Below are positions 29,552 through 47,960 of a stretch of 64,000 nt of DNA, in pieces. Origin of the DNA: Paramacrobiotus metropolitanus (Eukaryota > Tardigrada > Eutardigrada > Parachela > Macrobiotidae). Positions within the stretch are counted from its first letter, which is position 1, and the number at the start of each line of letters is the position of its first letter. The stretch is taken from assembly GCF_019649055.1 (NCBI RefSeq), contig NW_026570227.1, forward strand, positions 2,108,001 through 2,172,000, read 5' to 3'. The notes under the pieces were generated by a model that saw only the letters and a program-made list of their open reading frames with translations, was not told where the DNA came from and did not search any database. The translations under genes were made by a program, and so were the position numbers.

Positions 29552-29888
29552 TGTGAGCGGGGGTTCACTAGCGTTCACGTCCACGACGCTACGCCAGCTG
29601 GATTACGTGTCTGTGTTGTGTCTCGCTCTGATTGGCTAGTGGGCGCGGCATAGCACGTGCTGCACAGTGTTACACACTGTTGAATTGGCTCTACGATTTG
29701 CGATCGAGCTGCGCCGATCACTTGTTGATTTCTGTTGTGCAGATTTTCAATATTATTAAAAGTTGGCTATTAGCGGTGCGACGTCTCGCGATTCCGCGTA
29801 GTTCGCTATACATATCGCATAGCTCACTCCACGGGATAGATTCCGTTTCTGTCTCCGTCCCTGGATCCATTCTGGATCTAGCATTAGA
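29552..29888 (+). repeat. 5' LTR
   Basis: 337 bases starting TGTGAGCGGGGG and ending ATCTAGCATTAGA directly before the primer site. Identical to 47399-47735 by eye. A TATTAAAAG run near 29753 could serve as a TATA-like element. U3/R/U5 borders cannot be set from sequence. A plus open frame starting inside it is incidental. Confidence 0.95.
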
Positions 29889-29899
29889 TGGTAGCAGAG
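29889..29899 (+). other. Primer-binding site for initiator tRNA-Met
   Basis: TGGTAGCAGAG immediately after the 5' LTR is complementary to the 3' end (CTCTGCTACCA) of animal initiator tRNA-Met, an 11-base match. This is where minus-strand DNA synthesis would start. The next base departs from the tRNA. Confidence 0.85.
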
Positions 29900-31559
29900 C
29901 CGACAGCGGTTCTCTGACTGAATTGTGTCAGGCAAAGTTGGCCTGTTATCTGATGTGTTTTCTGTGACCAGTAAGGCACAGGTCCGTGCAACAGCAAAGC
30001 GCACACCACAAGCGGTGCAACTCCATCGGGACGCGGATTTCCAGCTTTGGTTTTCGGTACAGTGTCTTCAGCGAAGACCTGTGCTGTTTCCTCAGCTGAG
30101 CAAGAGTACAAGAGTTCAGTCGTCAGTGTTCCTCGGTGTAGAGTCTTCAGCGAAGACCTACACTGGTGTCACTGATACTCGGCAAGGATTCAGCGAATCC
30201 TAAGCCGTGGGCCACAAGCGGCGAAGCGCCAAAAGGGGTGCACGGGACAAGACCAGATCAGACTCCTCCAAACTGGAGTAGAGCGCCACTACTGTTGCTA
30301 CGGCAGTCAGCCGGCACAGTAACTGACTAAAAGCGTGCGGCACAACCGCTACGGAAAAGCGGCAGCGCGGGAACGGAGTGTGGAGAAGAATCGGATCATC
30401 TGGATCATTTCCCCGCGGAACGGACGGTGAACAGGTAGAAAAGCCGTTATTAATTACGGGATTGGTTAGATGGTAAAATCGTCAATTTTTATTGGTCCGT
30501 ACTGAGCTGAGCATAGAAGTAGGCGGAGTTTTGCACGCGGCACGCATGTCTGGCCGTTGACCGTGACGTCAGGCTGATATAAAATTTAAGTGGCCTAATG
30601 TGATTGGTCAGTTATCTGAGCTGTGATTGGCTGAAATCTGAACTGAATATTTTGAGCTAGTCGACCAATCAGAACGAAGTAAACAACGTAAATGGGGATT
30701 TTCCGCTGAACTTGAGTTGTAACGAGAATTTCGACTTGAGACTAGATATTTGAAAGGAAAAGTGACCTTTCGAGTTAAGACAAGGGAAAAGTGACCTTTA
30801 ACTGAAATTGAGTTGGAAAGTGACCTTTAACTTGAATTGAACTGGAAAGTGACCCGTTGAACTTGAGTTGTAATGAGAAATAGGAATCGAAATGAGATAT
30901 TTGAAAGGGAAAGTGACCTTTTGAGTTGAGTTGAACTGAAAGTGACCTTTTAACAGAAATTGAGTTGAAAGTGATTTTGAACTTGAAATTGAGCTGGAAA
31001 GTGACCTTTAACTGAAATTGAGCTCGAAAGTGACCTTTAAGTGAAATTGAGTCGGAAAGTGACCTTTAAGTTAAACTGAGCTGGAAAGTGACCTTTTAAG
31101 TTGAGTTGAGTCGGAAAGTGACCTTTGAGATCAGAAGTTGACCTTTGACCCCGAAAAGTGACCTTTACCGAAAAATTAAAATTGACTGAATTGACATCTC
31201 GAGTGACCTTTAAGATCTGCAAACGATCAACGGTGACCTTTATCGAAGTTAAAATTGCGTTGTAATAGTATAACGATATTAGCAGCAGTAGGATCTCATT
31301 CGTAAACGTGTTTTAAACTGTAAAAGCGGATTCGAAGTTTTGTCTGAAAAGTGACCTTTAGGGCAAATCTCTCGAAGTTTTTATTGAAAAAGTGACCTTT
31401 AAACGGAACTTAGTCGAAATTTTTCAACCGAAAAGTGACCTTTAAAAGGGACTTAAAAAAATTTCGAACTGTAAAGTGACCTTTAGGACAACTGAATAAA
31501 CCATACGATAACGTGTGTGTGAGAACAATTGGCAGGAGCGTCAAAGTTATCCGATCAAC
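29900..31559 (+). other. 5' leader of the retrotransposon
   Basis: About 1.66 kb without a sustained open frame. The first half (about 30020-30380) contains GGCCACAAGCGGCGAA and CTACGGCAGTCAGCCGGC, which recur in the 3' repeats at 46.1-46.6 kb. The second half is the TGACCTTT array. Expected to hold packaging and dimerisation signals; none is recognised by name. Confidence 0.6.
30761..31485 (+). repeat. TGACCTTT octamer array in the leader
   Basis: About 18 copies of TGACCTTT, mostly within AAAGTGACCTTTAA, spaced roughly 25-60 bases in a degenerate tandem (spacer often TGAATTGAGTTGGA-like). All face the same way. The complement is AAAGGTCA, the NBRE nuclear-receptor site. A few decayed copies (GTGACCCGTT, GTGATTTTGA) lie within the array. 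Confidence 0.9.
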
Positions 31560-31850
31560 ATGGACAAAGACAATGTGGAACCGACATCTAACAGCAGCCA
31601 GGGAAGCAGGAGCTCCCGCGGATCACAGCAAGGCGCAGTCGATCCGTATAAGAAGGAATACAAGTCGCTCGCGCGTCCAGTCGGACACGATAGACAGACC
31701 CGAGCGGCTGTGACCTTTGCAAGAAAGGACAGCAAAGGCAGTGACATGACAGTACATACCAAGTGGCGCTCGGAGCTATACAGAACGAAGAGAGCTCCAG
31801 CGGTGACGGAAAGCAAACTCCCGCGTCTGCGGCGGGAGGCAAACCGATGA
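31560..31850 (+). CDS. gag: gag, N-terminal segment (frame-broken)
   Basis: First good ATG after the leader (MDKDNVEP, 31560). It encodes a Ser/Gln/Arg-rich stretch of about 97 aa. The open frame then ends at 31850 while the next gag frame already runs from about 31763, so a single-base frame break lies near 31780. No domain is recognised in this part. Start chosen because it is the first ATG downstream of the repeat leader. Confidence 0.6.
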   Translation: MDKDNVEPTSNSSQGSRSSRGSQQGAVDPYKKEYKSLARPVGHDRQTRAAVTFARKDSKGSDMTVHTKWRSELYRTKRAPAVTESKLPRLRREANR

Positions 31851-33292
31851 ACCAGAAAAAGGTCACTGGTGAGGATGGAACCACAAAAATGGAAGCGGAG
31901 GCAGTTGGGGCATCACAGTTGGATGCTACCATTGTCAGAACAGAAGAGCAGGATAAAAACGCAAACCCGGCTCAAGTGGAAATGGAAAAGACAAAGGTTA
32001 CCGAAGAAGAATTGGCTGAGCTCGGATTGAGTGACCTTTCGCTGAATGACAAAGCGGCAGACGATGACCTTTGGGCAACTCCAATGGTCTCAGATGAGTC
32101 CAATGAATCATATTTCACGGACGATGAAACGACTATGAATATGTCATTCCAATCCGCAATGAGACAAGCTGACCGTGCTGAAGGGATGACACCTTTCAAA
32201 GAGATACCGGAGCACCTTATTGAACGGACAACAACAGGAAAGGTCATCAACGTACAACCACCGTCACCTAACAGTCCCACGTCAACTCTGAAGAGACGCG
32301 TGAAGGAGTTGGAAGAAGAACTTGAAACCAAGGAAAGCCTGGTGGCGAAGAAGAAACAGGAATATCAAAATCGGATAGGATCTCTGGATGCTCGTATCTA
32401 TGAACTGGAGCAACAACAAGCTGACTTGGAAAGCACAGCGGACGAATGGAAGATTAAATACGAGCGTCAAAAAGAGCTTGCTGAGGAGTACCTGAAAATG
32501 GTAGATGACAGAGAAATGGAAGGTCATCTCGCAGTCAGTGACCTTAACGAGTCAGCCGAAAGGTCACGGCACTTGGCGGAATTGAAGGACGAGTGTGACA
32601 AATTGCGTCAAAAGGTCACCGAAGCCGAAACTAAACGGGACGAATACGCCGCCAACCTAGCAGAGGCTACACAACGATTGACAAAGTTGGCGACGGAAAC
32701 GTTTAAGCTCAGGAATGACCTGAAGCTGCGGGAGGAAGATGTCAGCACCCTGCAACACGAGTCGAAAGGTCACCAGAAACGGGCAGACGAAGCTGAAAAG
32801 TTACGCAACGACGCAATCAAAGAGATGCGCGAGGCAAGAGACATTACAGCCACTGAAGGGGAACGCCTGAAAGAAGAAATCGAAAAGGTCAACCGGGAGA
32901 ATGAAAAGGTCATGGTAGACATTGAAAAGGTCACCAAGGAGGGACTTAAATGGCAGAAGGAAGCACGTCGAATGGACACAATGGTTACAGCATTGGAGCG
33001 GAAGGATAAAGTGTGGCAGCAACAAGTCGCAGAAAAGAGCCAGGAAGTTACGAGGCTAAATAGCGAACTACTCGAAATGACTACCACAGCACTGGCAAAG
33101 GATGATGAGTTGATCGCGATCAAGAATCAGCTGAGAGCAGCCGCTGGACAATATAAGCAACTTGAAAAAGAAACAACCGAGCTGGTCGAGCACATCAAAA
33201 GATGGAACAGGATAACGAAAAGGTCACGCAGCAAGAGACGTTTAAGCTGCACGAACACCTACGAAAGGTCGACTTGGAAAATTCCGATTTGA
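31763..33292 (+). CDS. gag: gag, long coiled-coil segment
   Basis: About 500 codons rich in Glu, Lys, Gln and Ala with continuous heptad character (for example LKRRVKELEEELETKESLVA) from about 32270 on, predicting a long parallel coiled coil. The segment before it is acidic. Ty3 Gags are usually compact, so a coiled coil of this length is unusual and may drive assembly or bind host filaments. The first codon in the open frame is GTG and is not a real start; the segment joins the 31560 part. The frame ends shortly after a break near 33195, with the coiled coil continuing in 33202-34374. It contains about ten in-frame AAAGGTCA octamers. Confidence 0.75.
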   Translation: MALGAIQNEESSSGDGKQTPASAAGGKPMNQKKVTGEDGTTKMEAEAVGASQLDATIVRTEEQDKNANPAQVEMEKTKVTEEELAELGLSDLSLNDKAADDDLWATPMVSDESNESYFTDDETTMNMSFQSAMRQADRAEGMTPFKEIPEHLIERTTTGKVINVQPPSPNSPTSTLKRRVKELEEELETKESLVAKKKQEYQNRIGSLDARIYELEQQQADLESTADEWKIKYERQKELAEEYLKMVDDREMEGHLAVSDLNESAERSRHLAELKDECDKLRQKVTEAETKRDEYAANLAEATQRLTKLATETFKLRNDLKLREEDVSTLQHESKGHQKRADEAEKLRNDAIKEMREARDITATEGERLKEEIEKVNRENEKVMVDIEKVTKEGLKWQKEARRMDTMVTALERKDKVWQQQVAEKSQEVTRLNSELLEMTTTALAKDDELIAIKNQLRAAAGQYKQLEKETTELVEHIKRWNRITKRSRSKRRLSCTNTYERSTWKIPI

Positions 33293-34374
33293 AGAGGCAA
33301 AGAGAGGAACTTCAGCTGCGAACTAAACGCCTTGAGGACGAGAATAAAGTCCTCCAGATGTCAAACAAACATAAGGATGAACAACTCGTTCAACATGGAG
33401 TCAAGGCAGCAACAGTGGAGTCTCCCCCGCCCAGTTACAGTAAAGCACATGAAACGGGCACGGGTAAAAGCTTCCACTTCGAGATGCCACTGCGAACCGG
33501 TACGGGCACCGGAAGTGTCAAAAACGAAAAGGATAGTGAAAAGGTCAAAGATGACAAAGAGCCACCATCAGGAGGCTATCCGCACATGAGTCACGGCGAT
33601 CCCTCCCAATTTCCCCCGCATATTGAAACGAATGTGTATATTGACGAAAGGCTCAGGGACAGACCCCCCAGTCGACAAGAACGCCCTCGGAAGTCCCGTT
33701 ACGGAAAGGCGAAACGAAACCAAAATGATGATGAAAATAGCGAAGAAGAGGATGACCTGACAGCAGAATCGACAGCGGCGCAATTGACAAAAGCGCTCAA
33801 CTCGATGGCTCGGAAAACGACGTTAGTGACCTTTGACGGAAGTCGCGATGCAGTCAATGGCTGGACACAACTGGTCCGAGACACTCAGCGAACTTATCAA
33901 CTTACGGACGACCAGGTCCTGATCGAAATAGCTAGCGCGGTGAAAGGACCAGCAAAAACTTGGTTCGAAGGCGAGAGGGAAATCGCACTCCAGGAAGAGA
34001 TGGAGTATACGATAACAGAATGGATGAACAAATTCAAAGACGAATACGGTGACCGTGATGAAGAAGTCCTCGGCTTACGAGAAGCCATGGCAAGGAAATT
34101 TGACCTTGGAAAGGAATCTCTTGATCAGTTTTATCAAGCGATCATGAAATACAAGGCGAAAAGGATTATTACTGAGAAGCAAGCAGTCGGCTTCCTTATC
34201 GAAGGATGCAGAGCGGACAGTGACCTTTATAAGGCACTGCGCACACAGCAGTGTAGAACGCCAAACCGAAATCAAAGATTTCTTCCGACATTGGTCAGCT
34301 GGAGAAGAAAAGTACAAAGCACCGAAAGGTCAACGCAACCAGGACTATGTCACAATTCGCACAGGACAAGTTGA
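33202..34374 (+). CDS. gag: gag, capsid-like segment
   Basis: Starts with the tail of the coiled coil, then a Pro/Gly/Lys linker (33420-33720). From about 33760 to 34250 follows a retrotransposon Gag core: LVTFDGSRDAVNGWTQLVRD, VKGPAKTWFEGE, WMNKFKDEYGD, and FLIEGCRADSDLYKAL, in the order found in Ty3 capsid-like proteins. The frame breaks near 34250 and continues in 34220-35335. In the virus-like particle this would form the shell. Confidence 0.8.
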   Translation: MEQDNEKVTQQETFKLHEHLRKVDLENSDLKRQREELQLRTKRLEDENKVLQMSNKHKDEQLVQHGVKAATVESPPPSYSKAHETGTGKSFHFEMPLRTGTGTGSVKNEKDSEKVKDDKEPPSGGYPHMSHGDPSQFPPHIETNVYIDERLRDRPPSRQERPRKSRYGKAKRNQNDDENSEEEDDLTAESTAAQLTKALNSMARKTTLVTFDGSRDAVNGWTQLVRDTQRTYQLTDDQVLIEIASAVKGPAKTWFEGEREIALQEEMEYTITEWMNKFKDEYGDRDEEVLGLREAMARKFDLGKESLDQFYQAIMKYKAKRIITEKQAVGFLIEGCRADSDLYKALRTQQCRTPNRNQRFLPTLVSWRRKVQSTERSTQPGLCHNSHRTS

Positions 34375-35335
34375 GAATGTGCCACAACAAAGGATTGCGG
34401 CAGCACCGGTTCAACAGGCGGTTGAATACCGCAGAGAAGCCCCGGTGCAAGAGGTCACAAAGGAGGTGACCTTTATCGATAGCCAGACGGGACAGCCACT
34501 TACATACGCAATGGTAGCTGCGATACAGGCGGCGGCTCAAGTGAGACCGGTACCTCAGAATGTGGCTCCACCGGCACCACAGAATGTGGCCCCTATGAAT
34601 GCAGGATTACCACAACAAGGAGTGGGCAATGGAAATTTCGGTGGAAACGGATATGGTAATGGAAATTGGAATGGAGGTCAAGGGAACTTCCAGAATCAAG
34701 GTCAAGGTCAAGGCAACTTCCAGCCAAATAGGGGAAACCAGAATAACTTCCAGCAGAATCAGGGGTCACGAACGGAATTCAAGTTTCAAATGATTGATGG
34801 ATGGGTTGCAAACGGTGTACAGATGTGCCAATACTGTATGTATGGCAATCATCAGACCCAGGGATGCAAGTTCGCGAATACGCCGCCGGATCAGAACCCG
34901 AACTTGTTCGCTTTCAGAGAGTGGCAACGGCTGCGCAATTCGGGCGGCTGGCGACAGGCGGTGGCAAATGGATATGACCTGATCGCTCAATGGTATCAGG
35001 CCAAAGCGAACTTTCAGCAAGGAAACGGAAATTATGGAAACGGAAATGGTGGCCAAGGCGGTGGCAACCGTGGCGGCTTCCGCGGCGGCTTTAGAGGGAG
35101 AAACAGAGGCTTTGGCCGCGGAAATTGGAATGGCGGCAACCGAAACGGCGGAAATGGAGGCGGCCAAGGAAACTACCAACAGGGTGGTGGCCAAAATAAT
35201 GGTGGTGGCCAGAATAACGGAGGCGGGCAAAATTATGTCCCGGTAAATAACGGCGGACAAGGAAACGTGCAAGGAAACGTGCAGGGCGCGCAACAAAGTG
35301 GTGCGCCGGTTCAGGGAAACGGGCAAGATCAGTAG
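34220..35335 (+). CDS. gag: gag, nucleocapsid segment with zinc knuckle and Gly-rich tail
   Basis: After the capsid end it has a Gln/Pro/Ala linker, then one CCHC zinc knuckle (CQYCMYGNHQTQGC, spacing C-x2-C-x4-H-x4-C) near 34825-34866. A Gly/Asn/Gln-rich tail with RGG-type repeats (GGFRGGFRGRNRGFGRG) ends at TAG 35333-35335. Zinc knuckle plus RGG tail indicates RNA binding. Asn/Gln/Gly tails of this kind are prone to condensation. The pol frame begins about 85 bases downstream in another frame. Confidence 0.85.
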   Translation: MTFIRHCAHSSVERQTEIKDFFRHWSAGEEKYKAPKGQRNQDYVTIRTGQVENVPQQRIAAAPVQQAVEYRREAPVQEVTKEVTFIDSQTGQPLTYAMVAAIQAAAQVRPVPQNVAPPAPQNVAPMNAGLPQQGVGNGNFGGNGYGNGNWNGGQGNFQNQGQGQGNFQPNRGNQNNFQQNQGSRTEFKFQMIDGWVANGVQMCQYCMYGNHQTQGCKFANTPPDQNPNLFAFREWQRLRNSGGWRQAVANGYDLIAQWYQAKANFQQGNGNYGNGNGGQGGGNRGGFRGGFRGRNRGFGRGNWNGGNRNGGNGGGQGNYQQGGGQNNGGGQNNGGGQNYVPVNNGGQGNVQGNVQGAQQSGAPVQGNGQDQ

Positions 35336-35420
35336 GCACCGGTGAGCCTACTGATCGCCCCGACCCTAAACCACCGGATAAAAGGGAACGGAAAGGTCAC
35401 CACTGCAGAATGGTACTGCA

Positions 35421-38400
35421 GTGAATGTGACCACTGCAACGGCTATAAGGATGCCGTTGGCGAAGAAAGAAAGTGGACCGGCTATATGGATGCCGCAACC
35501 ACAGCAAACGGCTATATGGATGCCGCCACAGCAAAGCGAAACGGCTAAATGGATGTCGTCATTGCAAAAGGAAATTGAAACGGCTATAAGGATGCAGCAA
35601 AAAGAACTGGTTATCGGGAAACCAGTACAAGTGGATAAAAGGTCACCGCAGAATGGTACTGCGAGTGGAAACGCGCAACGGGACCAAAGGTCACCGCAGA
35701 ATGGTACTGCGAGTGGAAATTGTCGTGACGGTAGCGCGACACTGCGAACAGCGCAGCAAAATGAAAGGTCACCGCACTGCAGCGAAGAAGTGCTGGCGCA
35801 ACGACGCGCACAACGGAATGCAAAGATTAAACAGGCGTTGCTGAACCAGAAGAAACCGCAGAACGATACTGCGCAAGAGGTAAATGAGCAACATGCAAAA
35901 TTCCGGAAATACTTGGCAGAGAACGATAAGGCGAATGAGCCAAGTTGCGATTGTTACGGGGAACCAAAACTAAAGTTTTGGAATTGTTCCGAGGACGAGG
36001 AAGAGAAACTGATAAGGCAAAAATGGATGGAACAGAATATCGCTGTTACCAGTAAAGATGAAAAGTCACCTTCCGTAGGAAAAGTCCAAGTGAAAAGTAA
36101 AGGAGCAAGTGCGAACGCTAAAGGTCACGGCGACAGCGTCGTGTTAAAAGGTCAAGAAACAGACTTGACACTGCGAACAGCGCAGCAAAAGAATAGCGAA
36201 CAGGCACAACAAAACTCCGACGACTCACTTGTGGATGCAGTAACGCTGCAACGGAAGGAAATATGGCAAAAAGTGGCCTACAGACCGAATGGGAATCACG
36301 GGATGTGGATACCCGTGACACCGAAAGCGAAACAAAAAAGTGGAATGTCACAAGAAGATTACTGGGACATGCGAGAACTGCGAACGCAACATGAAAGAAA
36401 ACGACTGGAAGAATTGGTTACCGGGAAAGAAGCTAAAAGGTCACCGAACCTTGCTCCAGTATTCAACGCAACTGAATACAAGAATGCACAAGCTGACCTG
36501 AATAACCCGCGAAACGCACCACCGAAAGATAAACCGTCGAATTACGGAGAAAAAGTTCCCATACAAAAGCTGTCTAGCGGCGGATTTGTCATAAAGCGCA
36601 ATGAAAGGTCACAGGACTTAGCGCGAAATGAACAGAAAGGAGGGTCAAATGAGATGGCGCAAACACAACAGAGTAGTGCAGTTGAAAGGTCACGGGACTT
36701 CTCACAAGCGCTACAAAAGGATGCCAATGACAAGTCACCAGCCCGAACAGACGGGATGTCTTCGCAAATCGACCCGACAAAAACGAACAATGAAGTGTCT
36801 GCAAAAGTGATTGAATGGATGACCGAAAAGGGATATGATATGGTAACATATGAAAGGTCACCAAATGAGATGAAAGACAGCGAAGCAGACGACTTGAAGC
36901 AAGCTGACCAAATAACAAGTGAAGTCATTGAGAAGCTGCGGGATAAACGAAATGAAAACCGCAAAGAGGAACTGATCCACGAGACGATAAATGAAGTGAC
37001 TAAAGGTCACGGGGAAAGCACAAAAGCAAATCCGCAAGTGCAGAACGTTGAAAAGGTCACCAGTGGTAAAATGGCTGCAGAGAAGCAAGCAGATAAGAAG
37101 AAGCCGCAAAAATTCTACGACGTTCGAATTAACGTCCCACACAGGATTGACAAGCTAAGCGAAATACTGAAAGGTCACAGTACTTCAGCGAAAGGGCAAG
37201 CGCTCCCCGATATGGATCCGGGACCAGTATCGTTAATTCCTGTGAAATGTAAGATACACACATTGAAGATTCAAAACGGAAAATTGCCCAAAAGAATTGA
37301 AGCGTACACTCACGAAGTGAAAGTGGGAGATATAAAGGTCAACGCAATGCTGGACACCGGCGCTGAGACGTCGCTGATCAGCAAACCGTTTTGTGAGACA
37401 AATGGACTTCATATGCTCCCATTGCCACCAGACAGACTGGTGAAGATTAACGGAATCAGCGGAACGTCAGGATTCCTGGTGACGCATTACTGCTTAGCAC
37501 CAGTGACCTTAAGAAAAAAGACTAGTGAACACTCCTTCTACGTCCGACCGAAATGTGATGACGTACAGGTGTTACTTGGATTTGACTTCTTAGAAAAGAA
37601 ATTTGTACTGATGGATAATGAAGGGGAAGAAGAAAAAGAAGATGACCCCAAACCAGTCGCCAAAGTTCAAGTCGGAAAGGTCACCGAACTTGTAAAACAG
37701 ACGGGGAATGCTCAGACTGATAATAAGGTGCTAATCCCAGTACCAGAGGCACCGGGAAAGGAGCAGAAAAAGGTGGCGCAAAAAGAATTGTCGACATTTG
37801 AGCAGTTGAAACTGATCCAACAGGAGATCGAAAATACATTAAGCCGGACACTGCTGACACAAAAGGGAAGAGAAAAGGTCATCCCAGTACCAGAGGCACC
37901 GGGAATGACGAGAGTGCAGCAAAACGAGATTAGCCAACGGACAATCCCGGTACCAGAGGCACCGGAGAAGAAAAGTGAAAGTGGAAATGTCAAAAAAGTG
38001 AACGAGAGAAAAAAAGAACCGCTTGCGCCAGATACGGATGAGGCGATCATATTTCTCCCGGACGGGAGAAGTATGATCGCAGATAACGGTGAGCAAGGAG
38101 CCACAGAAAAAGAATATGTCGAAAAAGTTATCCCAGTACCAGAGGCACTGGGAAAGGAAAACGAAAGGTCACCAGCGACAAGAGTTGTGAACTTGAAACC
38201 AGAGCGCGCTTCGAACCTTTTCGAACCTCGATCTGCTATTGAAAATGACGAAAGGTCACCAGCACTCGAAGAGATAGCTGCCACACACAAAGGGGCGGCG
38301 GTCGCAGCAAAACAATCGCTCGTGCCTGGCATGGAGTGGGCAAAGCCTATCCCAGTACCAGAGGCACTGGGAATAAAGACGGCCAAAGTGGATAAAAAGA

Positions 38401-38924
38401 GTGAAAGCTTACGGATATTGAAACGAATAGCTGAAGAAGAACAGATGTTCGCGAGCGAAATCCGCAATAAAGCGCTTGAGCAGTTGAAAGGTCACCAACT
38501 GAATAATGGAACGGAGATTATTGAAATATCCTCCGACGAAGCGATCGTAACGGAAATCGAACGTGAGCAGAAAACCACAACACAGGAGAAGGAGGTCGCC
38601 AACCCGCAGACGAATCGAAGGATATTAACTCCAGAAGAACGAATGGGGAGTTGCGGACATGGTTACTATGAGGATCCGTGTAGAGTGCAACCACAATGGG
38701 AATGCACCGAATGTTGTCAAGACGCCTCCCAAGATGACCTTTCAGAATGGCCGAGATGTAACGCTGCATTAGCAGATCTTAAAGGTCAAGATCAAAAGAA
38801 AACGAAAAGTATCATGAGGACCAACGAAATGTGGAAGCCACACATTGAGCGGTATCATTGGAACAGATATCGGACCTGGTTGTCATGTGTAAAAAACTTT
38901 ATTACGGGAGAGGGAAATGGCTAA
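35421..38924 (+). CDS. pol: pol segment 1: repetitive N-terminal region and aspartic protease
   Basis: 1167 codons. The first 620 or so are low-complexity and charged, studded with ERSP, KGH and KVT tripeptides, all encoded by the octamer AAAGGTCA in its three frames. At about 37310-37620 lies a retropepsin-like protease: MLDTGAETSLIS active site, and LLGFDFLE near its end. After it come five copies of IPVPEA(P/L)G (about 37735-38370) and then LFEPRS. The function of the N-terminal part is unknown. It opens in a different frame from gag. The frame is lost near 38900 and resumes in 38858-39502. Confidence 0.8.
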   Translation: MNVTTATAIRMPLAKKESGPAIWMPQPQQTAIWMPPQQSETAKWMSSLQKEIETAIRMQQKELVIGKPVQVDKRSPQNGTASGNAQRDQRSPQNGTASGNCRDGSATLRTAQQNERSPHCSEEVLAQRRAQRNAKIKQALLNQKKPQNDTAQEVNEQHAKFRKYLAENDKANEPSCDCYGEPKLKFWNCSEDEEEKLIRQKWMEQNIAVTSKDEKSPSVGKVQVKSKGASANAKGHGDSVVLKGQETDLTLRTAQQKNSEQAQQNSDDSLVDAVTLQRKEIWQKVAYRPNGNHGMWIPVTPKAKQKSGMSQEDYWDMRELRTQHERKRLEELVTGKEAKRSPNLAPVFNATEYKNAQADLNNPRNAPPKDKPSNYGEKVPIQKLSSGGFVIKRNERSQDLARNEQKGGSNEMAQTQQSSAVERSRDFSQALQKDANDKSPARTDGMSSQIDPTKTNNEVSAKVIEWMTEKGYDMVTYERSPNEMKDSEADDLKQADQITSEVIEKLRDKRNENRKEELIHETINEVTKGHGESTKANPQVQNVEKVTSGKMAAEKQADKKKPQKFYDVRINVPHRIDKLSEILKGHSTSAKGQALPDMDPGPVSLIPVKCKIHTLKIQNGKLPKRIEAYTHEVKVGDIKVNAMLDTGAETSLISKPFCETNGLHMLPLPPDRLVKINGISGTSGFLVTHYCLAPVTLRKKTSEHSFYVRPKCDDVQVLLGFDFLEKKFVLMDNEGEEEKEDDPKPVAKVQVGKVTELVKQTGNAQTDNKVLIPVPEAPGKEQKKVAQKELSTFEQLKLIQQEIENTLSRTLLTQKGREKVIPVPEAPGMTRVQQNEISQRTIPVPEAPEKKSESGNVKKVNERKKEPLAPDTDEAIIFLPDGRSMIADNGEQGATEKEYVEKVIPVPEALGKENERSPATRVVNLKPERASNLFEPRSAIENDERSPALEEIAATHKGAAVAAKQSLVPGMEWAKPIPVPEALGIKTAKVDKKSESLRILKRIAEEEQMFASEIRNKALEQLKGHQLNNGTEIIEISSDEAIVTEIEREQKTTTQEKEVANPQTNRRILTPEERMGSCGHGYYEDPCRVQPQWECTECCQDASQDDLSEWPRCNAALADLKGQDQKKTKSIMRTNEMWKPHIERYHWNRYRTWLSCVKNFITGEGNG

Positions 38925-39502
38925 ACCATTGGCAGCAACGTGCGGATAACGGAATCCAAGATCCCTTTGATCCGGTAAAAACGGAACGGAAACTCGAAAG
39001 AGAGATAGACGTAATGAATGAAGAAGTACAGCTATGGGAAGAAGCGAGAATAGAACTGTTCTGGGACTTTCGCATAAACCATATGTACAAAGGTCAAGGG
39101 AGAACAGTCATATTCCCAACAGGACTTGGTACACCGGTATTTGAATCGGTGGTGGTATTCTGTAAAGCACTCAAAGATGATAACTGGCAGATATTCGACA
39201 AATACTGGAGGAAATTCGAAACGGAGATTCCAATATTCGACGCAAAGGAGATGCGCGAATTGCAAGTAACCCGGAAAAGAAGGTTACCGGGATTGATGGA
39301 GAAGAAAAAGGTGACCTTTGCACCAGATCCAGATGGAGTCGACTACCCAGAACGAGGTGGTGATACGTGGTACATGTACGAAACGATTCCGAGTGATGAC
39401 TGGGTCACCGAAGAACTCATGGCAATTGCGTTTTTGTTGGTCCCAAACGGCCTAAAGGTTACGAGACGGTCCAACAGGATGAAATTGATAAAGAGACTAT
39501 GA
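38858..39502 (+). CDS. pol: pol segment 2: protease-RT linker
   Basis: About 200 codons rich in Trp and charged residues (ELFWDFRINHMYKGQG, WQIFDKYWRKFETEIP). No family recognised. It overlaps the ends of both neighbouring frames. At its 3' end the stop TGA overlaps an ATG (39499). I read this as part of one continuous pol interrupted by indels, not as an independent gene, because it is flanked by pol on both sides. Confidence 0.55.
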   Translation: MEQISDLVVMCKKLYYGRGKWLNHWQQRADNGIQDPFDPVKTERKLEREIDVMNEEVQLWEEARIELFWDFRINHMYKGQGRTVIFPTGLGTPVFESVVVFCKALKDDNWQIFDKYWRKFETEIPIFDAKEMRELQVTRKRRLPGLMEKKKVTFAPDPDGVDYPERGGDTWYMYETIPSDDWVTEELMAIAFLLVPNGLKVTRRSNRMKLIKRL

Positions 39503-41925
39503 AAGAAGCGGAGAAGGAAGAAACAGCTAAAGAGACAGCTGAAGGAGAATCGAACGAGACGGAAGAAAGTTCAAAGTCGGCTTTCGACATCGCACGGATG
39601 TTAACAGATAGAGGTGAAATGTGGAAGAAGTTCAAAGAGGAAGTCGAAAGGATATCGAATGAACAACAAGACCCAGTAACTGAGGCAAAAAACGGGGAAA
39701 GGTCACTCGATAACGGTGAGGGATGTCCGCCGGTCGGGTTGACCGAAAAACCAGTAATGAGCCCCGAAGAAATTGATGAGTTGGAAAAGTCAAAATCGGA
39801 AGAAGAAAGGTCAAACTCCGATCAATCAGAAAGGTCACCAACGAGAATTCGGGTAGCAAGGAGTCACCCAAGAGTCGCTGCACGAAATGGGCGAAAGGCA
39901 AAAGAAGGGGACAAACCCCTGCTCAAAAATTCAAAAGTGAAAAAACTTAGCGATTCGCGGGAAAACGAAAGTGACCTTTTATCAGAAGATGAAGGAGTTG
40001 ATGAGCGCCCACTCGAAAAGGCTGATAAAGGTCAAGCTACTGTACAGGAATATGAGAGTAGTAACTCGGACTCCGAGTGGACGAGTTCAAGTGATAACTC
40101 AACGACTTCGGAAGATTCAGGCGTAAGTGACCTTTCAGAACAAGAGGACTTAATGGATCTGGATGAAGATGACGAAGTGGACGAAGAAAAAGAAAAAGAA
40201 ATTAAAGTCAGAAGATTGAAAGTGGAAAAGGCTAGAATGTCGAAAGATGTGATTAAGGTCTACAGTGACCAAAGAATTAAATTGAAACCGTCAAACTGCA
40301 CACGGGTAAAGGTCAAGATGGGAAAATATGCACCGGCTCAGAACAAGTTGATGTTTACACCGGTCCCGCAAATTGAAACCGATGTGCAACCGTTGGCAGG
40401 AGTGACGGACCACAGAGGAAAATACTTCGAAATCGTCATCGCGAATCACAGTAGCAAATATCAAATCGTGAAGAAAAATCAACTTCTTGGCTACGTGGAG
40501 CCGTATGAACATATGGAAAACGTAAAGGTTAACGCTGGGACAGTAAAGAACGTACTCGAAGACCCAGAGGTGGACGATACGACGAAAGCGGAACTGACAA
40601 AGATAATTGGAAACTTGAAATTAGGACCCGACCTAACTGAGGAACAAAAGAATGACGTGTATAACGCGTTCTGGGAATTCTGGAAGGTCTTACCCACATC
40701 AAAGAAACCATATGGAGATGTGAAAGGGGTCACTCACGTAATCGATACGGGAGATGCGAAACCAGTCAAATGTAACCCGGCCAGAACGAGTTGGACAGGC
40801 CGCGAGTTTATAACGAAGCATATTAAAGAAATGTTGGCACAAGATGTAATCGAGCGGTCGGACGCCGAGTGGAGTTTCCCAGTCGTACTGGCAGTAAAGA
40901 AAAACGGCGACGGGACAATGGGAACAAGATTTTGTGTCAACTACATTATGCTGAATAAGTTGACGAGGAAGAATAACTACCCGTTACCGAATCCGGACGA
41001 GTTGCTTGATGCGTGTGCAGGCAACAAATACTATGGAAAAATGGACTTGCAAAGTGGATTCTGGCAGATCCCAATGGATCCAGCGTCAATCAATAAGACG
41101 ACCTTTGTAACGCAAGATGGAATGTACCGGTTTAAAAGAATGCCATTTGGAGTCTGCAATGGACCAGCAACATTCCAATTGTGCATGGATAAAGTACTGT
41201 CGAAAGCGAAAAGAAAGGGTTGTGTTTTCGGGTACATAGATGACGTTATTTTCGCCGGAAAAACGTGGGCGATTTTCATGCAAAATTTGAGAAACGTCTT
41301 AATGAGTTTAGTCGAAGCGGGATTCACGATAAAGCCGACTAAATGCGAATTTGGAATGAGACAAATGGGTTTCTTGGGACATATCCTTAGTGAAGATGGA
41401 ATCCGAATGGATCCGGAAAAGGTCACCGCAGTCTCAGAATTTAAACGACCTCAAACAGAAAGGCAGCTAAGGTCATTCCTCGGACTGGCGAATTATTATC
41501 GCAAGTTCATTATGGGATATGCACAGAAGACTTGTCATTTGTATGAGCTGTTGAGACAAGACAAACAAGTAAAGAAAGACTGGACGAAAGTGCACGAAGA
41601 CGAATTCAACAGTTTGAAACAACTGTTGTGTGAAGGTCCAGTATTGGCGAAGTTTGACCCCGCAAAACCGACCGTTATTGAATGCGACGCAAGTAAAGAA
41701 GGAATTGGAGCAGTGTTGTCACAGGATGGACATCCGATTGCGTACGCGAGTCGTGTTCTACATGGTGCTGAAAGGAATTACGGTGTGACGGAATGGGAAT
41801 GTCTGGCAGTGGTCTTTGCTGTCAGAAAATTCAAGCCATTTATCGACTATGCGGAATTCACCGTAAGAACGGATCACCAGGCGCTGACCAACTTACTAAG
41901 GTCAGAGACGAATAAAGTGGAATGA
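39499..41925 (+). CDS. pol: pol segment 3: reverse transcriptase and most of RNase H
   Basis: 808 codons. A Ser/Glu/Asp-rich acidic region (39500-40250) precedes a Ty3-type RT: RFCVNYIMLNKLT, KMDLQSGFWQIPM, FKRMPFGVCNGPATFQ, the catalytic YIDD at 41233-41244, FLGHILSEDGI and FLGLANYYRKFI. RNase H follows with IECDASKEGIGAVLSQDG, YGVTEWECLAVVFAV and RTDHQALTNLL. The RNase H domain is cut by a frame break at the 3' end (stop at 41923-41925), continuing in 41922-42176. Catalytic aspartates are intact. Confidence 0.95.
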   Translation: MKEAEKEETAKETAEGESNETEESSKSAFDIARMLTDRGEMWKKFKEEVERISNEQQDPVTEAKNGERSLDNGEGCPPVGLTEKPVMSPEEIDELEKSKSEEERSNSDQSERSPTRIRVARSHPRVAARNGRKAKEGDKPLLKNSKVKKLSDSRENESDLLSEDEGVDERPLEKADKGQATVQEYESSNSDSEWTSSSDNSTTSEDSGVSDLSEQEDLMDLDEDDEVDEEKEKEIKVRRLKVEKARMSKDVIKVYSDQRIKLKPSNCTRVKVKMGKYAPAQNKLMFTPVPQIETDVQPLAGVTDHRGKYFEIVIANHSSKYQIVKKNQLLGYVEPYEHMENVKVNAGTVKNVLEDPEVDDTTKAELTKIIGNLKLGPDLTEEQKNDVYNAFWEFWKVLPTSKKPYGDVKGVTHVIDTGDAKPVKCNPARTSWTGREFITKHIKEMLAQDVIERSDAEWSFPVVLAVKKNGDGTMGTRFCVNYIMLNKLTRKNNYPLPNPDELLDACAGNKYYGKMDLQSGFWQIPMDPASINKTTFVTQDGMYRFKRMPFGVCNGPATFQLCMDKVLSKAKRKGCVFGYIDDVIFAGKTWAIFMQNLRNVLMSLVEAGFTIKPTKCEFGMRQMGFLGHILSEDGIRMDPEKVTAVSEFKRPQTERQLRSFLGLANYYRKFIMGYAQKTCHLYELLRQDKQVKKDWTKVHEDEFNSLKQLLCEGPVLAKFDPAKPTVIECDASKEGIGAVLSQDGHPIAYASRVLHGAERNYGVTEWECLAVVFAVRKFKPFIDYAEFTVRTDHQALTNLLRSETNKVE

Positions 41926-42176
41926 ACCCGCGTTTGACAAGATGGGCAATGGCACTGCAGGGTCACCAATTCAAAATCGAATATAAACCGGGAAAGTACT
42001 GCGATAATGCGGACGCCTTATCAAGAGCGCCAATTGAAGGCCCAACGTGCCATGAAGAAGAATTCGATGAAATTCCGAATTTTGAAGATTACAAGAAAGA
42101 ATTCGACACGAAAGAACCAGCAATCGAAATTGGACAGCTGTTCTTACAGATGGTGGAACAGAGAGAAAACGTTTAA
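41922..42176 (+). CDS. pol: pol segment 4: end of RNase H / tether
   Basis: 84 codons continuing the RNase H end: LTRWAMALQGHQFKIEYKPG and NADALSRAP are the conserved closing motifs of Ty3 RNase H. The ATG at its start overlaps the previous stop, but the domain is split mid-motif, so this is a frame break and not a separate gene. It ends in a T-rich run near 42172 where the frame changes again. Confidence 0.85.
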   Translation: MNPRLTRWAMALQGHQFKIEYKPGKYCDNADALSRAPIEGPTCHEEEFDEIPNFEDYKKEFDTKEPAIEIGQLFLQMVEQRENV

Positions 42177-42223
42177 AGGTCACTTTAGCTACGGCGAATG
42201 AGTCGGCTGAAAATGAAGCAAAA

Positions 42224-44104
42224 GTGAACCGGGTAAAAAGCTGGTTGCCTGTTAGCGACCTAAAGGTCACCGGACTTAACGCGGAATTCGAAGATCAAAA
42301 TGGAAAGGTCACCGGACTTGACGAAACGGTGGAAAGTCGGGATGACCTTTGGGAAAAGGACAAAGTGACACAAGCGCTGAATGAGTGTCCGATCAAGTTG
42401 TTGAGATTCCCAAAACAGACAAAAAAGAGGTACAAGCCGTTACCGCGGTGCAAGGTCATCAAGGATTGGAACGAACTCAGTACGGCAACAGTCCGTATTG
42501 TTAACTTACAAGGCGATGAGGAGGAAGAAGATGACTCGAACTTGCAGTTGCGGAATAAACAGCTAAAGGATCCCCATCTGGCGATGATAATAGATGAATT
42601 GGAACATCTACCAGATGCCGAAACGCGATCGAAATTCGAAGTTCATTACCAGTTATGGAATGGCATATTGTACCGAGTAAAGGATAAAAATGGGAGACTT
42701 GAAAGGTCATATGTCGTACCGTTGTCAATGCGAAGAGCGATAATCCACGCATTACACGACGAGAAAGCGGCAGGACACTTGGGATTCGAAAAGACATTGA
42801 CAGCAATCCGACTCCGATATTATTGGGATCGGATGAGTACAGACGTGAAGAATTACATAACTGCCTGTCAAGGATGTCAATTTCGTAAGACACCGAGGAA
42901 ATGCCCACCCGGGAAATTGCAAGAGATAAAGGTCGGACATCCGTTCTTCCGGGTCTATGCGGACTTGAAAGGACCATTGCTACCGACGAAGAAACGTGGA
43001 TATAAGTACATAGCGGTGTTCATCGATCAGTTGACGAAATACGTGATTGCCGTACCAATGAAGACGGCTACAGCCAAAGAATTTGCCAAAGTGTTCGTCA
43101 AACATGTGATATTGGTACATGGAGCACCACACATCTTACACACGGATCGTGGACGGCACTTTACAGCCGAAGTTTTGACAAAGGTCACCAATGTGTTCAA
43201 GATTAGACACACATTTGGAACAGCATATCACCCAGAAGGTCAAGGCCAAGTCGAAAGACAGATGCAGACGATTGCGGATGGCTTGGCGCAATACTTGAAA
43301 GCGGGAAACGAAAGGAAGTTCAACAAGTACCTCCCATATGTCATTTCGGCGATGAACAGAGTCGTACACGCCACGACCGGATATTCAGCATATTATATGC
43401 TGCACGGCAGAGAAATGACGATGCCGGAAGACGTGGTCACAAAAACGAATATCCCGGACGATTATGGGACCCCAGATGAATGGGTGGAGACCATGAAAAA
43501 GAATTTGACCTTTGCCGAAGAGGTGGCGAGATGTAACATCAAAGATGCATATGAAAAGAATGCGGAAATCTACAACAAGAAGAAATCGGAACCGAACTTC
43601 AAAGTCGGCGACTTTGTATTGATACGGCTCCCAAAGGATACGAAACAAGGGAAGAAGGAAAACCAATCGGACTTTAAGTCAAAATATGATAAAGTATGGA
43701 AAATCCTTAGCTTCCCGCGAGCAAACGAAGCAGAGGTCATTGAGCAGAACCCAAAGAAGGAAGCGGACTTAAAGGTCGTCTCAATCGACCGCCTGAAACC
43801 ATGGCATCCACCATTGCCAGATGAAAAGTTGGAAGGCAATCCTCAAGGAGAGATGGAATCAGAGCGAAGTCCACGAAATGATTTGGATCCCCAACGCAAA
43901 TCATTTTTCGAACCACCTCTGCTACCCGAAAAGGAAAAGTCGGAAGAAGATAAACTCAGTGAAGCCGAGCATGCTCCGAAAAATGGTACCAGTCAATTTT
44001 TCGAACCACGCTCTCTGCTACCTGACACAGGTGGAGATAAACCAAAAAAGAAGAGGGGAGACCGAGGAAAGAGGATAAAGATTTCGAGACAGCAGTTACA
44101 ATAA
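42224..44104 (+). CDS. pol: pol segment 5: integrase
   Basis: 626 codons. The zinc-binding HHCC (HALHDEKAAGHLG, then CQGCQ) lies at about 42750-42885. The DDE core follows: YADLKGP (first Asp), LHTDRGRHF (second Asp), GQGQVERQ (Glu). Then a GATPYE-like region (VVHATTGYSAYYMLHG) and a GPY/F-like C-terminal module (FKVGDFVLIRLP, then IDRLKPWHPP). After 43850 it becomes charged with FFEPP and FFEPRS repeats. The open frame probably begins upstream of 42224. It closes after a break near 44050 within A/G runs. Confidence 0.95.
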   Translation: MNRVKSWLPVSDLKVTGLNAEFEDQNGKVTGLDETVESRDDLWEKDKVTQALNECPIKLLRFPKQTKKRYKPLPRCKVIKDWNELSTATVRIVNLQGDEEEEDDSNLQLRNKQLKDPHLAMIIDELEHLPDAETRSKFEVHYQLWNGILYRVKDKNGRLERSYVVPLSMRRAIIHALHDEKAAGHLGFEKTLTAIRLRYYWDRMSTDVKNYITACQGCQFRKTPRKCPPGKLQEIKVGHPFFRVYADLKGPLLPTKKRGYKYIAVFIDQLTKYVIAVPMKTATAKEFAKVFVKHVILVHGAPHILHTDRGRHFTAEVLTKVTNVFKIRHTFGTAYHPEGQGQVERQMQTIADGLAQYLKAGNERKFNKYLPYVISAMNRVVHATTGYSAYYMLHGREMTMPEDVVTKTNIPDDYGTPDEWVETMKKNLTFAEEVARCNIKDAYEKNAEIYNKKKSEPNFKVGDFVLIRLPKDTKQGKKENQSDFKSKYDKVWKILSFPRANEAEVIEQNPKKEADLKVVSIDRLKPWHPPLPDEKLEGNPQGEMESERSPRNDLDPQRKSFFEPPLLPEKEKSEEDKLSEAEHAPKNGTSQFFEPRSLLPDTGGDKPKKKRGDRGKRIKISRQQLQ

Positions 44105-44106
44105 AA

Positions 44107-44559
44107 TTGAACGCAGAAGCTGGGAATTTGGCAGAAAGGTCACCAGGAACTGAAGATGAAGTAGCCAAACGCGCTTCGCAAAAAGAACTTGAACCGAACC
44201 AAAATCCTTTTTTCGAACCACGCACTGCTACCGGAGACAAGGATGACCTTTCGAAAGAACAGACAGGCGCCGAGATATCAGAGCGCGATTCGAATTTTTT
44301 CGAACCACGCATTGCTACTGGCAATGAGAATGACCTCATAAAAAAGAGAAAGGAGGAGATAGAAGCGGTCAAATCGAAAGCTGAACAATTGGGCCGCGAT
44401 ATAGCGAAAGTCATTGAGGAGAGAAAGGTTAAACAGAAGAGAAAGAAATTGACCCCTACAGAATTGTTGACCCAGAAAGGCGAAGTGGAAGATGCGGCTG
44501 ACAAAGAACTCCTTGATCGGATAACTAAAGGACGCAAAGACAATAACCCACAAAAATAA
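44107..44559 (+). CDS. pol: pol segment 6: charged C-terminal tail
   Basis: 150 codons of Lys/Glu-rich sequence with two more FFEPR(T/I)ATG repeats and a short coiled coil. It continues the repeat series of the integrase tail in another frame. It could also be read as a small separate ORF. The shared FFEPR repeats favour one polyprotein. It ends at TAA before the 3' octamer region. Confidence 0.6.
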   Translation: MNAEAGNLAERSPGTEDEVAKRASQKELEPNQNPFFEPRTATGDKDDLSKEQTGAEISERDSNFFEPRIATGNENDLIKKRKEEIEAVKSKAEQLGRDIAKVIEERKVKQKRKKLTPTELLTQKGEVEDAADKELLDRITKGRKDNNPQK

Positions 44560-47398
44560 GATTAATGGGGGTTCATGATATTAGGAACGGAAGTTCGAAA
44601 GGTGTAAGGGTCATAAGACGTACACCGGCCAGTCGTTATCGCTTTCATTGGTAGTGGAAAGGTCACCAAACTCTGACGAAAATTCATCAAAAATGTCAAA
44701 GGTCAAAGGTCATCGAAACGGGCGTCAGAAAGGTCATTACGGATGAAAAATCAACAGAAAGGTCATCCAATCGAAAGGTCATCAGACTCGGACTGAATCA
44801 CACGGGAGAAATGAAAGGTCAAGATATGCGAATTCAAACAGAACTGCGAAAAGGTCACGGGAGTCCGGAATCATCAGAGAGGTCGAAAGGTCCTCAAAGT
44901 AGTCAGAACGGTCATCACAAGGTCATCGAAGAGGAAAGGTCATCAAAAATTGTCGTCCAGTTGAAAGGTCATCAGACTCTGAATGAAGCACAAAAAGAAG
45001 TTAAAACGTCGACCGAAGCAAAAGCGGAAAAAGTGAAAGGTCAATCGAAAGGTTAAGAGACTCTGGCAGAAATCCAAATGGAACAGCCAAAAGGTCACGA
45101 AAGATCTAGATCAGCAAAAATGAAAGGTCATCAGACGAGATTGTGAAGCCAGATCGCCGAAAACCATAAGGTCAAGTGACCAATGAACCAAAGGTCAAGC
45201 GCAAATGAACTCAAAGGTCAAATGTCAAATGAACCAAGTGTCAAGTGAAAGGTCAAGTGACAGACCAAGTGAAAGGTCACGGAACTTGACAGAAAAAGAC
45301 GAACAGCCTAAAGGTCAAGAAACATCTGAAACTGCGACGGAAGAAACTCAACTGAAAGGTCACGGGACTTCAGAAAAAGGGGAGAAAGAAAAGGTCATGC
45401 TCCCAATGGACAAGGCAGCGGCAGAAGCAGAAGCTGCATCTGCGCGACAGGTGTACCAGAAATCGTTGTTTACACTGCTGAAAGAGGCTTCAGCGACGGA
45501 GAAACCGAAAGGTCAAGAAATTTCACTGACGACCGAGAAATCAAAAGGTCACGAGACTTGGCCGCAAAAAGAGAAGACTGACTAACCGAAATTGACTCAG
45601 TCTTCGTCCGGATCATTGGCGAGATTGACAACCGATGAGAAACAGTGTCAGGAAACAGACCCAACGGACTCGGCATTCCCCCAGAAACCGGATACGTGCG
45701 GTACACCAGCGAAATGATACATGCTACCAGAACACAACAAAAATGCGTGGAGAATGGTCATAACTGAAGCGACATTGGATAATATGTCGAACAAATGGAA
45801 CGACATGACCTTTTAAGTTACAAGGCTGTCAACTTCGAACGGGAAGAACTTTGTACTCGAATAATGGCGAACAGATCAGAAACAGTCGAATGTTAATTAG
45901 TTATCGATCGAGCACTTGAACCGGTGTAAACGTCAAAAAACTTGAAAGGTCACCATGCGAGAATGAGCTTAATAATGGAACGTGAAAGGTCATCACGTTA
46001 AAGTACCGAAAAGGTCATCGGAAGCGATTATGATGGTTAAGTATAAAGGTCACGTGACATATTACTTAAACTGTATTCGTATATTTGTGGTTTTCAGTGT
46101 TTATAGCACAGAACCAGAAAGGATAAAGAAATCATGTGGAGCATTTATTGGGGTTGAAATTGATTCGGTCTACAAAGCCGGCCCCAAGGGAGTTGTTACG
46201 GCAGTTAGCCGGCTCTCCTCCTTAAGCGATTCAGTGTTATAAATTGGCAAGAGAAACTACGGTAATCAAGCCGGATCTCTTGAAGACGAAAGGGGGCCAC
46301 AAGCGGCGAAAAAGAGAAAGACAACAGGTGGAAATATTAATGGGGTTGAATTTGATTCGGTCCATTAGCCGGCCCCATCAGAGACGCTACGGTGTACTAT
46401 GCCGGCCACTCTCTCCAAGCGATTCAGTGTCAAAACTTAACGAGAGAAATAACGGTAATCAAGCCGGATCTCTCGTACCGAAGATGGGCCACAAGCGGCG
46501 AACAAGAGTAAAAGATTTAATGTGGAAGCGTCATGGGGTAAATTTAATGCGGTAGTTAGCCGGCCCCATCAGAGATGCTACGGTAAACTCTGCCGGCACT
46601 CTGGCCGCTCGAGGCATGTTGAAGTTGGATGTGCGACGGAAAGGTCAAATCGAAATCTTTATCAGGGAGGCAAGCAAAGAAGTGCTTGAAGGCCGCAGAA
46701 AATTGGCTAAGTTCCTCCATGACCTTTAATCGAAGTTTGAAGCGAAGTTGGATGACCTTTGGGATCATTACCGCCCAAGAGAGTCACCGTATTGGAATTT
46801 AAGTCGCATGACCTTTGGGACCATTAACCCAAAACGAGTCGCACATCTCAACGGATCATCCCAACAAAGGATGACCTTTACCAGGGAGGAAGCGAACTAC
46901 GCTTGTCTTAAGACGTCCCTCCATGACCTATATGGATCTCATTTTAAGTCGTACAATTGATACGCACCATATCCCAAAGATTGAAGCAGTATTCCCTAAG
47001 TCGTACTTGATACGCACCCGATTCTCAAGCGGATTGTGATGAAAGTCGCACTATGGATGCGCAGAATTGCTCGAGCGAGCGGAATGGGCCAAGGTGCGGA
47101 AAACGGTGGACAGGACCTGTGACCTGGACGAATCAGAAATGGAGGATCCTTGTCTAAATTGATTAATTGCTTCTGTTGATCTGTTTAACTGTTGATCTGT
47201 TTTTGTATTAGAATTGATATGGAATAGTATTTTGATACAGATCTCTTTATTTCACATTGTGCATTTGGAATTGATGTGATAAAATGGAATAAGAGAATTT
47301 GATGTTTTTGAGCACGCACAGACACCGGCGACCGCCGTCTTTTCGTGGATTCGGGAGTGTGTCCAGCCTCAACGGAGCTCGGCATCCCCCCAGAGGCA
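44560..47398 (+). other. 3' region of the retrotransposon, octamer-rich
   Basis: About 2.8 kb. From 44650 to 46085 AAAGGTCA occurs about 28 times, often as GAAAGGTCATCAGA or GAAAGGTCACGG, so that open frames there (44811-45056, 45205-45585) look like KGH and RSS repeats. From 46620 to 46885 the orientation flips to mainly TGACCTTT. No env-like membrane protein is present. The bases just before the 3' LTR (CCCCCCAGAGGCA) are a poor polypurine tract. Confidence 0.75.
46130..46620 (+). repeat. About 190-200-bp tandem repeat, roughly 2.5 copies
   Basis: Markers recur at near-constant distance: GCGATTCAGTGT at about 46224 and 46425, GGCCACAAGCGGCGAA at about 46295 and 46487, and TAGCCGGC(C/T)CCATCAGAG in the later copies. 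Shorter versions of the same markers lie in the 5' leader near 30208-30320. May be structured RNA. Function unknown. Confidence 0.7.
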
Positions 47399-47735
47399 TG
47401 TGAGCGGGGGTTCACTAGCGTTCACGTCCACGACGCTACGCCAGCTGGATTACGTGTCTGTGTTGTGTCTCGCTCTGATTGGCTAGTGGGCGCGGCATAG
47501 CACGTGCTGCACAGTGTTACACACTGTTGAATTGGCTCTACGATTTGCGATCGAGCTGCGCCGATCACTTGTTGATTTCTGTTGTGCAGATTTTCAATAT
47601 TATTAAAAGTTGGCTATTAGCGGTGCGACGTCTCGCGATTCCGCGTAGTTCGCTATACATATCGCATAGCTCACTCCACGGGATAGATTCCGTTTCTGTC
47701 TCCGTCCCTGGATCCATTCTGGATCTAGCATTAGA
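47399..47735 (+). repeat. 3' LTR
   Basis: Identical to the 5' LTR over 337 bases as far as I can read. Followed directly by CGGT, the same four bases that precede the 5' LTR. Confidence 0.95.
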
Positions 47736-47960
47736 CGGTTAAATACGCAGCGCAACATCAGAACTTGGCTCTTTTAAGTATTTGTGTGAATCCTGTCGAT
47801 TTATGTGGAGCAAGCAGTCGAGGACCATTCAACCAGGTAAGCGCTACATAAAAAAACACTACTCCGCGCTTGCAATTTTCGAATCCAACGGCTAATTCAG
47901 CATTTCCATGTCCCGGATTCTTTGCAGTTCCTCGGACTTCGGAGTGAGACCAATTAATAA
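47736..47960. repeat. Dispersed repeat, right part (paralogous to 54190-54390)
   Basis: Shares TGCAACATCAGAAC-like start, GTAAGCGCTACAT and GAATCCAACGG with 54190-54360. It continues the locus interrupted by the LTR element and forms the 3' end of the degenerate DIRS-like copy at 48.4-49.1 kb. Confidence 0.7.

Follow-up and report, generated by a model that had tools for sequence, protein, structure and literature searches.

PMC4777543 and PMC6912296 describe the NBRE as the octamer AAAGGTCA, which is bound by receptors of the NR4A group as monomers, and PMC9067626 gives the NR4A2 consensus of JASPAR as AAGGTCAC. Described NBREs lie in the promoters and enhancers of host genes. Mobile elements that spread the sites of transcription factors are also known: the insulator of the Drosophila gypsy retrotransposon is a cluster of 12 Su(Hw) sites within 340 bp of the 5' untranslated region (PMC2374998), and in Caenorhabditis a class of DNA transposons, the Helitrons, carries heat-shock elements and accounts for a large part of the genomic sites of a stress factor (PMC6927752). 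Here we analyse a 64-kb stretch of contig NW_026570227.1 of the tardigrade Paramacrobiotus metropolitanus (the window), in which an 18.2-kb Ty3/Gypsy long terminal repeat (LTR) retrotransposon on the plus strand (29552..47735), defined by its LTR repeat, domain order and site list, is filled with NBREs.

The words in this element are exact copies of AAAGGTCA, with C favoured at the next position as in the JASPAR consensus; in contrast to NBREs in host regulatory DNA, about 100 of them fill a mobile element, coding sequence included. Like gypsy, this is an LTR retrotransposon with a leader cluster that resembles one of host-protein sites, here 18 in 722 bp, although the word is a different one and 89 further sites, constrained at synonymous positions, lie beyond the leader array. 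The Caenorhabditis Helitrons offer a parallel on the scale of the genome, whereas the present case concerns an LTR retrotransposon with around 100 sites per copy. Compared with Ty3/Gypsy elements, the LTRs and the succession of protease, reverse transcriptase (RT), RNase H and integrase are as expected, while the length of 18-26 kb, a coiled-coil-like coding sequence upstream of gag (judged by eye) and the motif load are not. Among the open-licence papers listed by targeted literature searches, no title or abstract opening described such a site-filled retrotransposon. What is new here is the extreme number and the constraint of sites across a whole element, down to synonymous positions.

The two orientations of the word, AAAGGTCA and TGACCTTT, occur 112 times in the window, against a mean of 2.58 and a maximum of 7 in 100 dinucleotide-preserving shuffles. 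The element contains 107 of the site starts (71 plus, 36 minus), and the other 45.8 kb of the window contain 5. A sequence-only reading of this DNA had counted by hand about 18 sites in the leader, about 90 in the rest of the element and a handful outside it; the exact counts of 18 in the array and 89 elsewhere bear this out, at a level far above the shuffled expectation. The element's own composition predicts 1.63 plus and 0.22 minus sites under an order-2 Markov model, so that minus sites exceed their compositional expectation by the larger factor, and with both strands combined AAAGGTCA is the most frequent 8-base word of the element.

The sites run through the leader, the coding part and the 3' region. 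The leader array (30763..31484) consists of 18 TGACCTTT words in a single, minus orientation and is in part a 29-bp tandem repeat, which its sites track. Leader sites are all minus, whereas body sites are mostly plus: the coding part (31763..44556, plus strand) has 44 plus and 12 minus sites in all three frames, and the 3' region (44557..47398, plus strand) has 27 and 5. The median gap between sites is 79 bp, and outside the leader the gaps vary widely without clear phasing. Within the open reading frame (ORF) pieces of the window we counted 42 plus and 12 minus sites, compared with means of 4.7 and 0.4 after synonymous codon shuffling (1000 rounds, with largest counts of 12 and 3), and the plus coding sites are distributed over the three frames as 10, 15 and 17. 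The sole site-free stretch of more than 1 kb in the element lies between 40316 and 41417, over the RT, as if coding constraint there allowed no room for the word.

Other copies of the family carry a similar load. A search with the LTR returned at least 41 matches (40 of 311 first-look candidates scored) and a search with the RT at least 106, at 87-100% identity (106 of 1700 candidates scored). At least 14 further copies have two LTRs, with lengths of 18-26 kb between the outer LTR ends, and pieces of seven of these were examined. All seven carry 76-101 sites each, so the absence of the motif from other copies, which the sequence-only reading had named as a refutation, did not come about; as non-overlapping words on the plus and minus strands, the counts are 65 and 36 in C55m, 66 and 30 in C370, 61 and 28 in both C55p and C87, 65 and 26 in C7b, 61 and 23 in C181, and 57 and 19 in C3. 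The three longer copies that were mapped, C55p, C181 and C3, contain about 4 kb past the integrase part that has no counterpart in the window copy, which adds 6-8 sites, and show more unaligned stretches closer to the 3' end.

To compare the fate of the sites with that of the surrounding sequence, the window element was aligned in two pieces to each of the seven copies (identity 83.5-94.3%), and motif words were set against control words made of the same letters in another order with at least four differences; sites outside aligned blocks were not counted (46 of 107 in C3, for example). Identical motif words numbered 92/105 in C55m against 560/718 permuted words, 92/105 against 391/717 in C370, 68/82 against 272/642 in C55p, 67/82 against 284/642 in C87, 64/84 against 218/662 in C7b, 66/83 against 231/644 in C181, and 47/61 against 222/551 in C3, which amounts to 76-92% of motif words and 33-79% of permuted words. 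Per base, identity is 0.94-1.00 within the eight motif positions and 0.73-0.98 in the flanks, and it rises at the ninth base in most pairwise rows. In the coding part, only 15 of 930 synonymous third positions inside motifs have changed over the seven copies, where about 199 changes were expected from the same codons outside motifs; codons that differed or failed to align at their first two bases did not enter the count. By row, the changes observed and expected are 1/149 and 7.1, 7/140 and 28.0, 3/132 and 30.9, 2/138 and 31.4, 1/131 and 39.3, 1/133 and 37.2, and 0/107 and 24.8. The pair with the highest similarity shows the smallest effect.

These data show that the sites are constrained as nucleotides. 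Because the words stay unchanged between copies whose surrounding sequence has diverged, within genes as well as outside them, something reads them. We give very little credence to a functionless origin, in which tandem duplication or copying multiplied the word and common descent explains its presence in the copies. In favour of such an origin, the leader and the 3' region consist in part of tandem repeats; however, sites also occur in non-repetitive coding sequence, in three frames, where third positions are nearly frozen, and the flanks diverge at or near background while the eight motif bases do not. Equal change inside and outside the words would have supported such an origin, and the opposite was found.

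Selection at the protein level, on the peptides KGH, ERS and KVT that the word encodes, was considered and set aside as unsupported, given the outcome of codon shuffling, the use of all frames and the nearly frozen third positions. The peptide patterns themselves were counted in related proteins. P0003 belongs to a deeper lineage that is nearer to the window's family than P0002 is, and it matches the sequence upstream of the RT at 263 of 517 aligned residues. Two of the three patterns are in excess in it: KG[HQ] occurs 3 times against 0.2 expected and [EKQ]RS 5 times against 0.9, but KV[TIMNSKR] only 5 times against 2.4 (P 0.08). In three other proteins of the window's own family, the KV pattern is not in excess in P0001 and P0011, nor the RS pattern in P0023, and the KG excess of P0001 is weak (P 0.116); the distant proteins P0002, P0018 and P0004 have no excess of any of the three.

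Turnover of the sites was followed over 124 distinct motif positions in the eight copies (window coordinates), of which the 66 aligned in all eight were used and the remaining 58 were not; cover is poor in the 3' region, where 108 of 224 cells of its plus sites are missing. The word is present in all copies at 27 of the 66 positions, is missing from one copy only at 17, is mixed at 17, and is confined to a single copy at 5 (4 in C7b and 1 in C181). Two of these five single-copy sites differ at three bases from what most other copies have there, and such gains suggest either that new sites are selected for or that local conversion has introduced them.

The form of the word gives insight into its reader. 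In the window copy, 107 exact words stand against 40 one-mismatch words (24 variants, both strands). Over the eight copies (n=734) the next base is C in 433 cases, T in 166, A in 133 and G in 2, although G follows other TCA words of the element in 156 of 670. T precedes the word in 10 of 56 coding sites and in 12 of 19 sites of the repeated leader. The sequence-only reading had named the word a classical NBRE, and this identification is upheld in the strict sense: the first base is A, a preceding T is not favoured in the coding part, C is the commonest next base and G is nearly excluded. Among near-variants, in counts that tally homologous sites repeatedly, GAAGGTCA, TAAGGTCA, AGAGGTCA, AAGGGTCA and AAAGGTCG are enriched in both orientations, while CAAGGTCA, AAAGGTTA and AAAGGGCA are clearly enriched in plus only. 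Since the main part of this spectrum is common to the two orientations, it favours a reader of double-stranded DNA, and we regard this class of reader as well supported.

The same spectrum bears on a role in RNA, which the sequence-only reading had also raised and in which the leader TGACCTTT words would pair with the body AAAGGTCA words, or an RNA-binding protein would read the word, in the packaging of a very long genome RNA. The minus leader and the mostly plus body are complementary, as pairing would require, and AAAGGTTA, a variant that G-U pairing would tolerate, is enriched in plus (36 against 5.5 expected) and not in minus (1 against 1.0), which is what such pairing would predict. Motif-oriented A>G and C>T differences as a class, however, which G-U pairing would tolerate only in plus, make up 16 of 28 differences at plus sites and 12 of 19 at minus sites, counting once per position. 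The variants that would be tolerated in minus only, AAAAGTCA, AAAGATCA and AAAGGCCA, occur once each against 1.8, 1.3 and 1.1 expected. The stability of the leader RNA is ordinary (z -0.88, 20 shuffles), and the stronger enrichment of the minus orientation relative to composition also counts against this role, which we judge to be disfavoured and quite improbable despite the behaviour of AAAGGTTA.

On the form of the word, NR4A is the probable reader, with rather more in favour of this assignment than against it. The host has an NR4A/HR38 orthologue in three exons at C45:296815-298439; its translated exon pieces are short, one of them reading VVRTDSLKGRRGRLPTKPK, and the closest solved chain to 43 residues of the second piece is that of NGFI-B (1CIT). 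We consider it unlikely, though a serious contender, that the reader is some other protein that binds double-stranded DNA, such as a zinc-finger protein, a different receptor of the host or a product of the element's own genes. Among 12 host receptor loci we take two to be ERR-like (L059 and L062, judged from the translated DNA-binding domain and its extension) and one to be FTZ-F1-like. According to PMC12941274, this species has 42 zinc-finger proteins of the C4 type. The element also encodes long stretches without a Pfam match, and three more ORFs of unassigned kind are found in the longer copies: in the 24-kb copy C55p (L036 4771-9673) they follow the integrase part, have 235, 529 and 871 residues and gave no Pfam match over the cut-off. 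The best solved-structure match to the last 183 residues of the third reaches only E 0.14; by eye this tail resembles a winged-helix domain, without database support.

Against a reader other than NR4A, the length of the word, its first base and its ninth base all fit the NBRE. FTZ-F1 reads YCAAGGYCR and ERR reads TNAAGGTCA, and the words of the element require A at the first base, where FTZ-F1-type sites have C. A site of the FTZ-F1/ERR type was rejected as a description of the word, as TCAAGGTCA has no excess in the genome (1,777 against 1,953 for the reversed control). Against a reader encoded by the element itself, the window copy and the two other 18-kb copies examined keep their sites with much less sequence in the region of the extra ORFs.

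Around 100 exact sites maintained over the whole element point to a function that needs them along the full length of the DNA, unlike an ordinary promoter. We propose that selection on the family has favoured a load of some 76-107 exact NBREs (AAAGGTCA with C, T or A as the next base) in each full-length copy, spread over the leader, coding part and 3' region. A sequence-specific protein would read them in double-stranded DNA, and the host NR4A/HR38, bound as a monomer, is the most likely candidate. Many receptors bound to the integrated DNA would act in cis as an element-long enhancer or anti-silencing platform, so that an unusually long element of 18-26 kb would be transcribed where and when NR4A is active. 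The dense leader array, laid out like the gypsy insulator, would fit an activating or anti-silencing block. The benefit is placed in cis because an effect shared in trans could hardly hold single sites in single copies; for this reason titration of the receptor, another function suggested by the sequence-only reading, would hardly account for the constraint, although it may be a side effect. The proposal as a whole, from the selected load through a double-stranded DNA reader that is most likely NR4A to activation in cis, is tentative, and we put it at slightly less than an even chance; its last step, from predicted NR4A binding to activation, is inferred.

Several observations weigh against this proposal. 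Both LTRs, where a promoter is expected, are without any site, and an ordinary promoter would have no use for sites in the body. The copies are related to one another, so the seven pairwise rows are not independent, and local gene conversion may be the source of the multi-base gains. The plus-only enrichment of AAAGGTTA is the result that G-U pairing would give, and the other receptors of the host presumably read AGGTCA-like sites as well.

The site-free LTRs and the spread of sites over coding sequence would fit at least as well a service to the incoming cDNA, in which a host DNA-binding protein bearing a nuclear localization signal (NR4A or another) coats 18-26 kb of linear DNA and aids its nuclear entry or protection. 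The spread of sites through all three parts of the element between the LTRs, on either strand and in every frame, with a median gap of 79 bp, agrees with such a coat, as do the additional sites in the extra 4 kb of the longer copies. The uneven density, with a dense array in the leader and a 1.1-kb gap over the RT, does not, and we hold this explanation to be distinctly unlikely. A bolder version, that the element has made the host receptor its coat, with the sites recruiting NR4A along all 18-26 kb and either carrying the cDNA to the nucleus or keeping open a block of chromatin, strikes us as rather unlikely.

The boundaries of the element given by the sequence-only reading, 29552..47735, are correct by repeat search and direct reading of the LTR ends. 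The outer LTRs share 300 identical bp by repeat search and 337 by reading, which also supplied the last bases of the 5' LTR (29552..29888); the 3' LTR (47399..47735) has the same sequence, and both lie on the plus strand. In this one copy, CGGT at 29548..29551 and 47736-47739 is a candidate 4-bp target-site duplication, read by eye, and a candidate primer-binding site, TGGTAGCAGAGCC (TGG...), adjoins the 5' LTR at 29889..29901 on the plus strand, also read by eye. Pfam places an aspartic protease domain at 37314..37598 (residues 645-739 of the frame 35382-38921), the RT and RNase H domains at 40897..41865, in the site-poor stretch, and the integrase zinc-binding and core domains at 42716..43234 (residues 211-383 of the frame 42086-44101), all on the plus strand and in the Ty3/Gypsy order. 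In a database search the three top-scoring matches were P. metropolitanus proteins. The coding part of the window copy is broken into several overlapping frames, and its longest open frame around the RT has 841 residues, compared with up to 3124 in other copies; the split frames may be real frameshifts or assembly errors. Within the 3' region, a 193-bp unit occurs twice at 46208-46602, and its words gccggc and aagcggcgaa recur in the leader near 30200-30400. Rfam at the gathering threshold and a tRNA scan gave no match in the 64-kb window.

A more distant Gypsy family in the same genome, marked by P0002 (55% identity over 60% of the query), has no AAAGGTCA in either orientation in six RT/integrase loci (31.3 kb) and one 4-kb gag-protease piece, a comparison whose scope does not include the leader, and these pieces (L050-L056) revealed no conspicuous word peculiar to that family.

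Word counts over the 169.8-Mb, 533-contig assembly, with the reversed word as control, gave 42,562 AAAGGTCA against 15,522, 19,414 AAAGGTCAC against 3,461, and 4,042 AAAGGTCAG against 2,427. If the reversed word is a fair background, the excess of about 27,000 words would amount to an estimated 250-350 copies' worth at 76-107 each. A series of eight AAAGGTCAG words in steps of about 91 bp at C1 2537724-2538368 is probably a satellite unrelated to the element.

Three other repeats were noted in the window. The array at 62079-62856 comprises about 53 units of ACGGCACAGCCGGGA with a one-sided A-rich strand; it was considered as the leader of a second motif-rich element and on reading looks like a plain minisatellite. 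A 39-bp tandem unit at 59324-59494 has a consensus that resembles an inverted repeat (TGGCTATTTTGCCGCAC...GTGCGGCGAAATAGCCGGT), and at 16043-16378 an 11-bp unit is repeated in three short arrays, which read AGGTTGTCTAC in two cases and GTAGACATCCT, in roughly opposite orientation, in the third.

The family makes it testable whether a retrotransposon can depend on the dense binding of one host receptor, and it offers a natural example of a genome that probably owes many of its sites for one receptor to a parasite. If the element has indeed made the receptor its coat, more than half of the NBREs in this tardigrade genome may stem from it, and retrotransposition may have become linked to a receptor of the stress response in an animal noted for its ability to survive drying.

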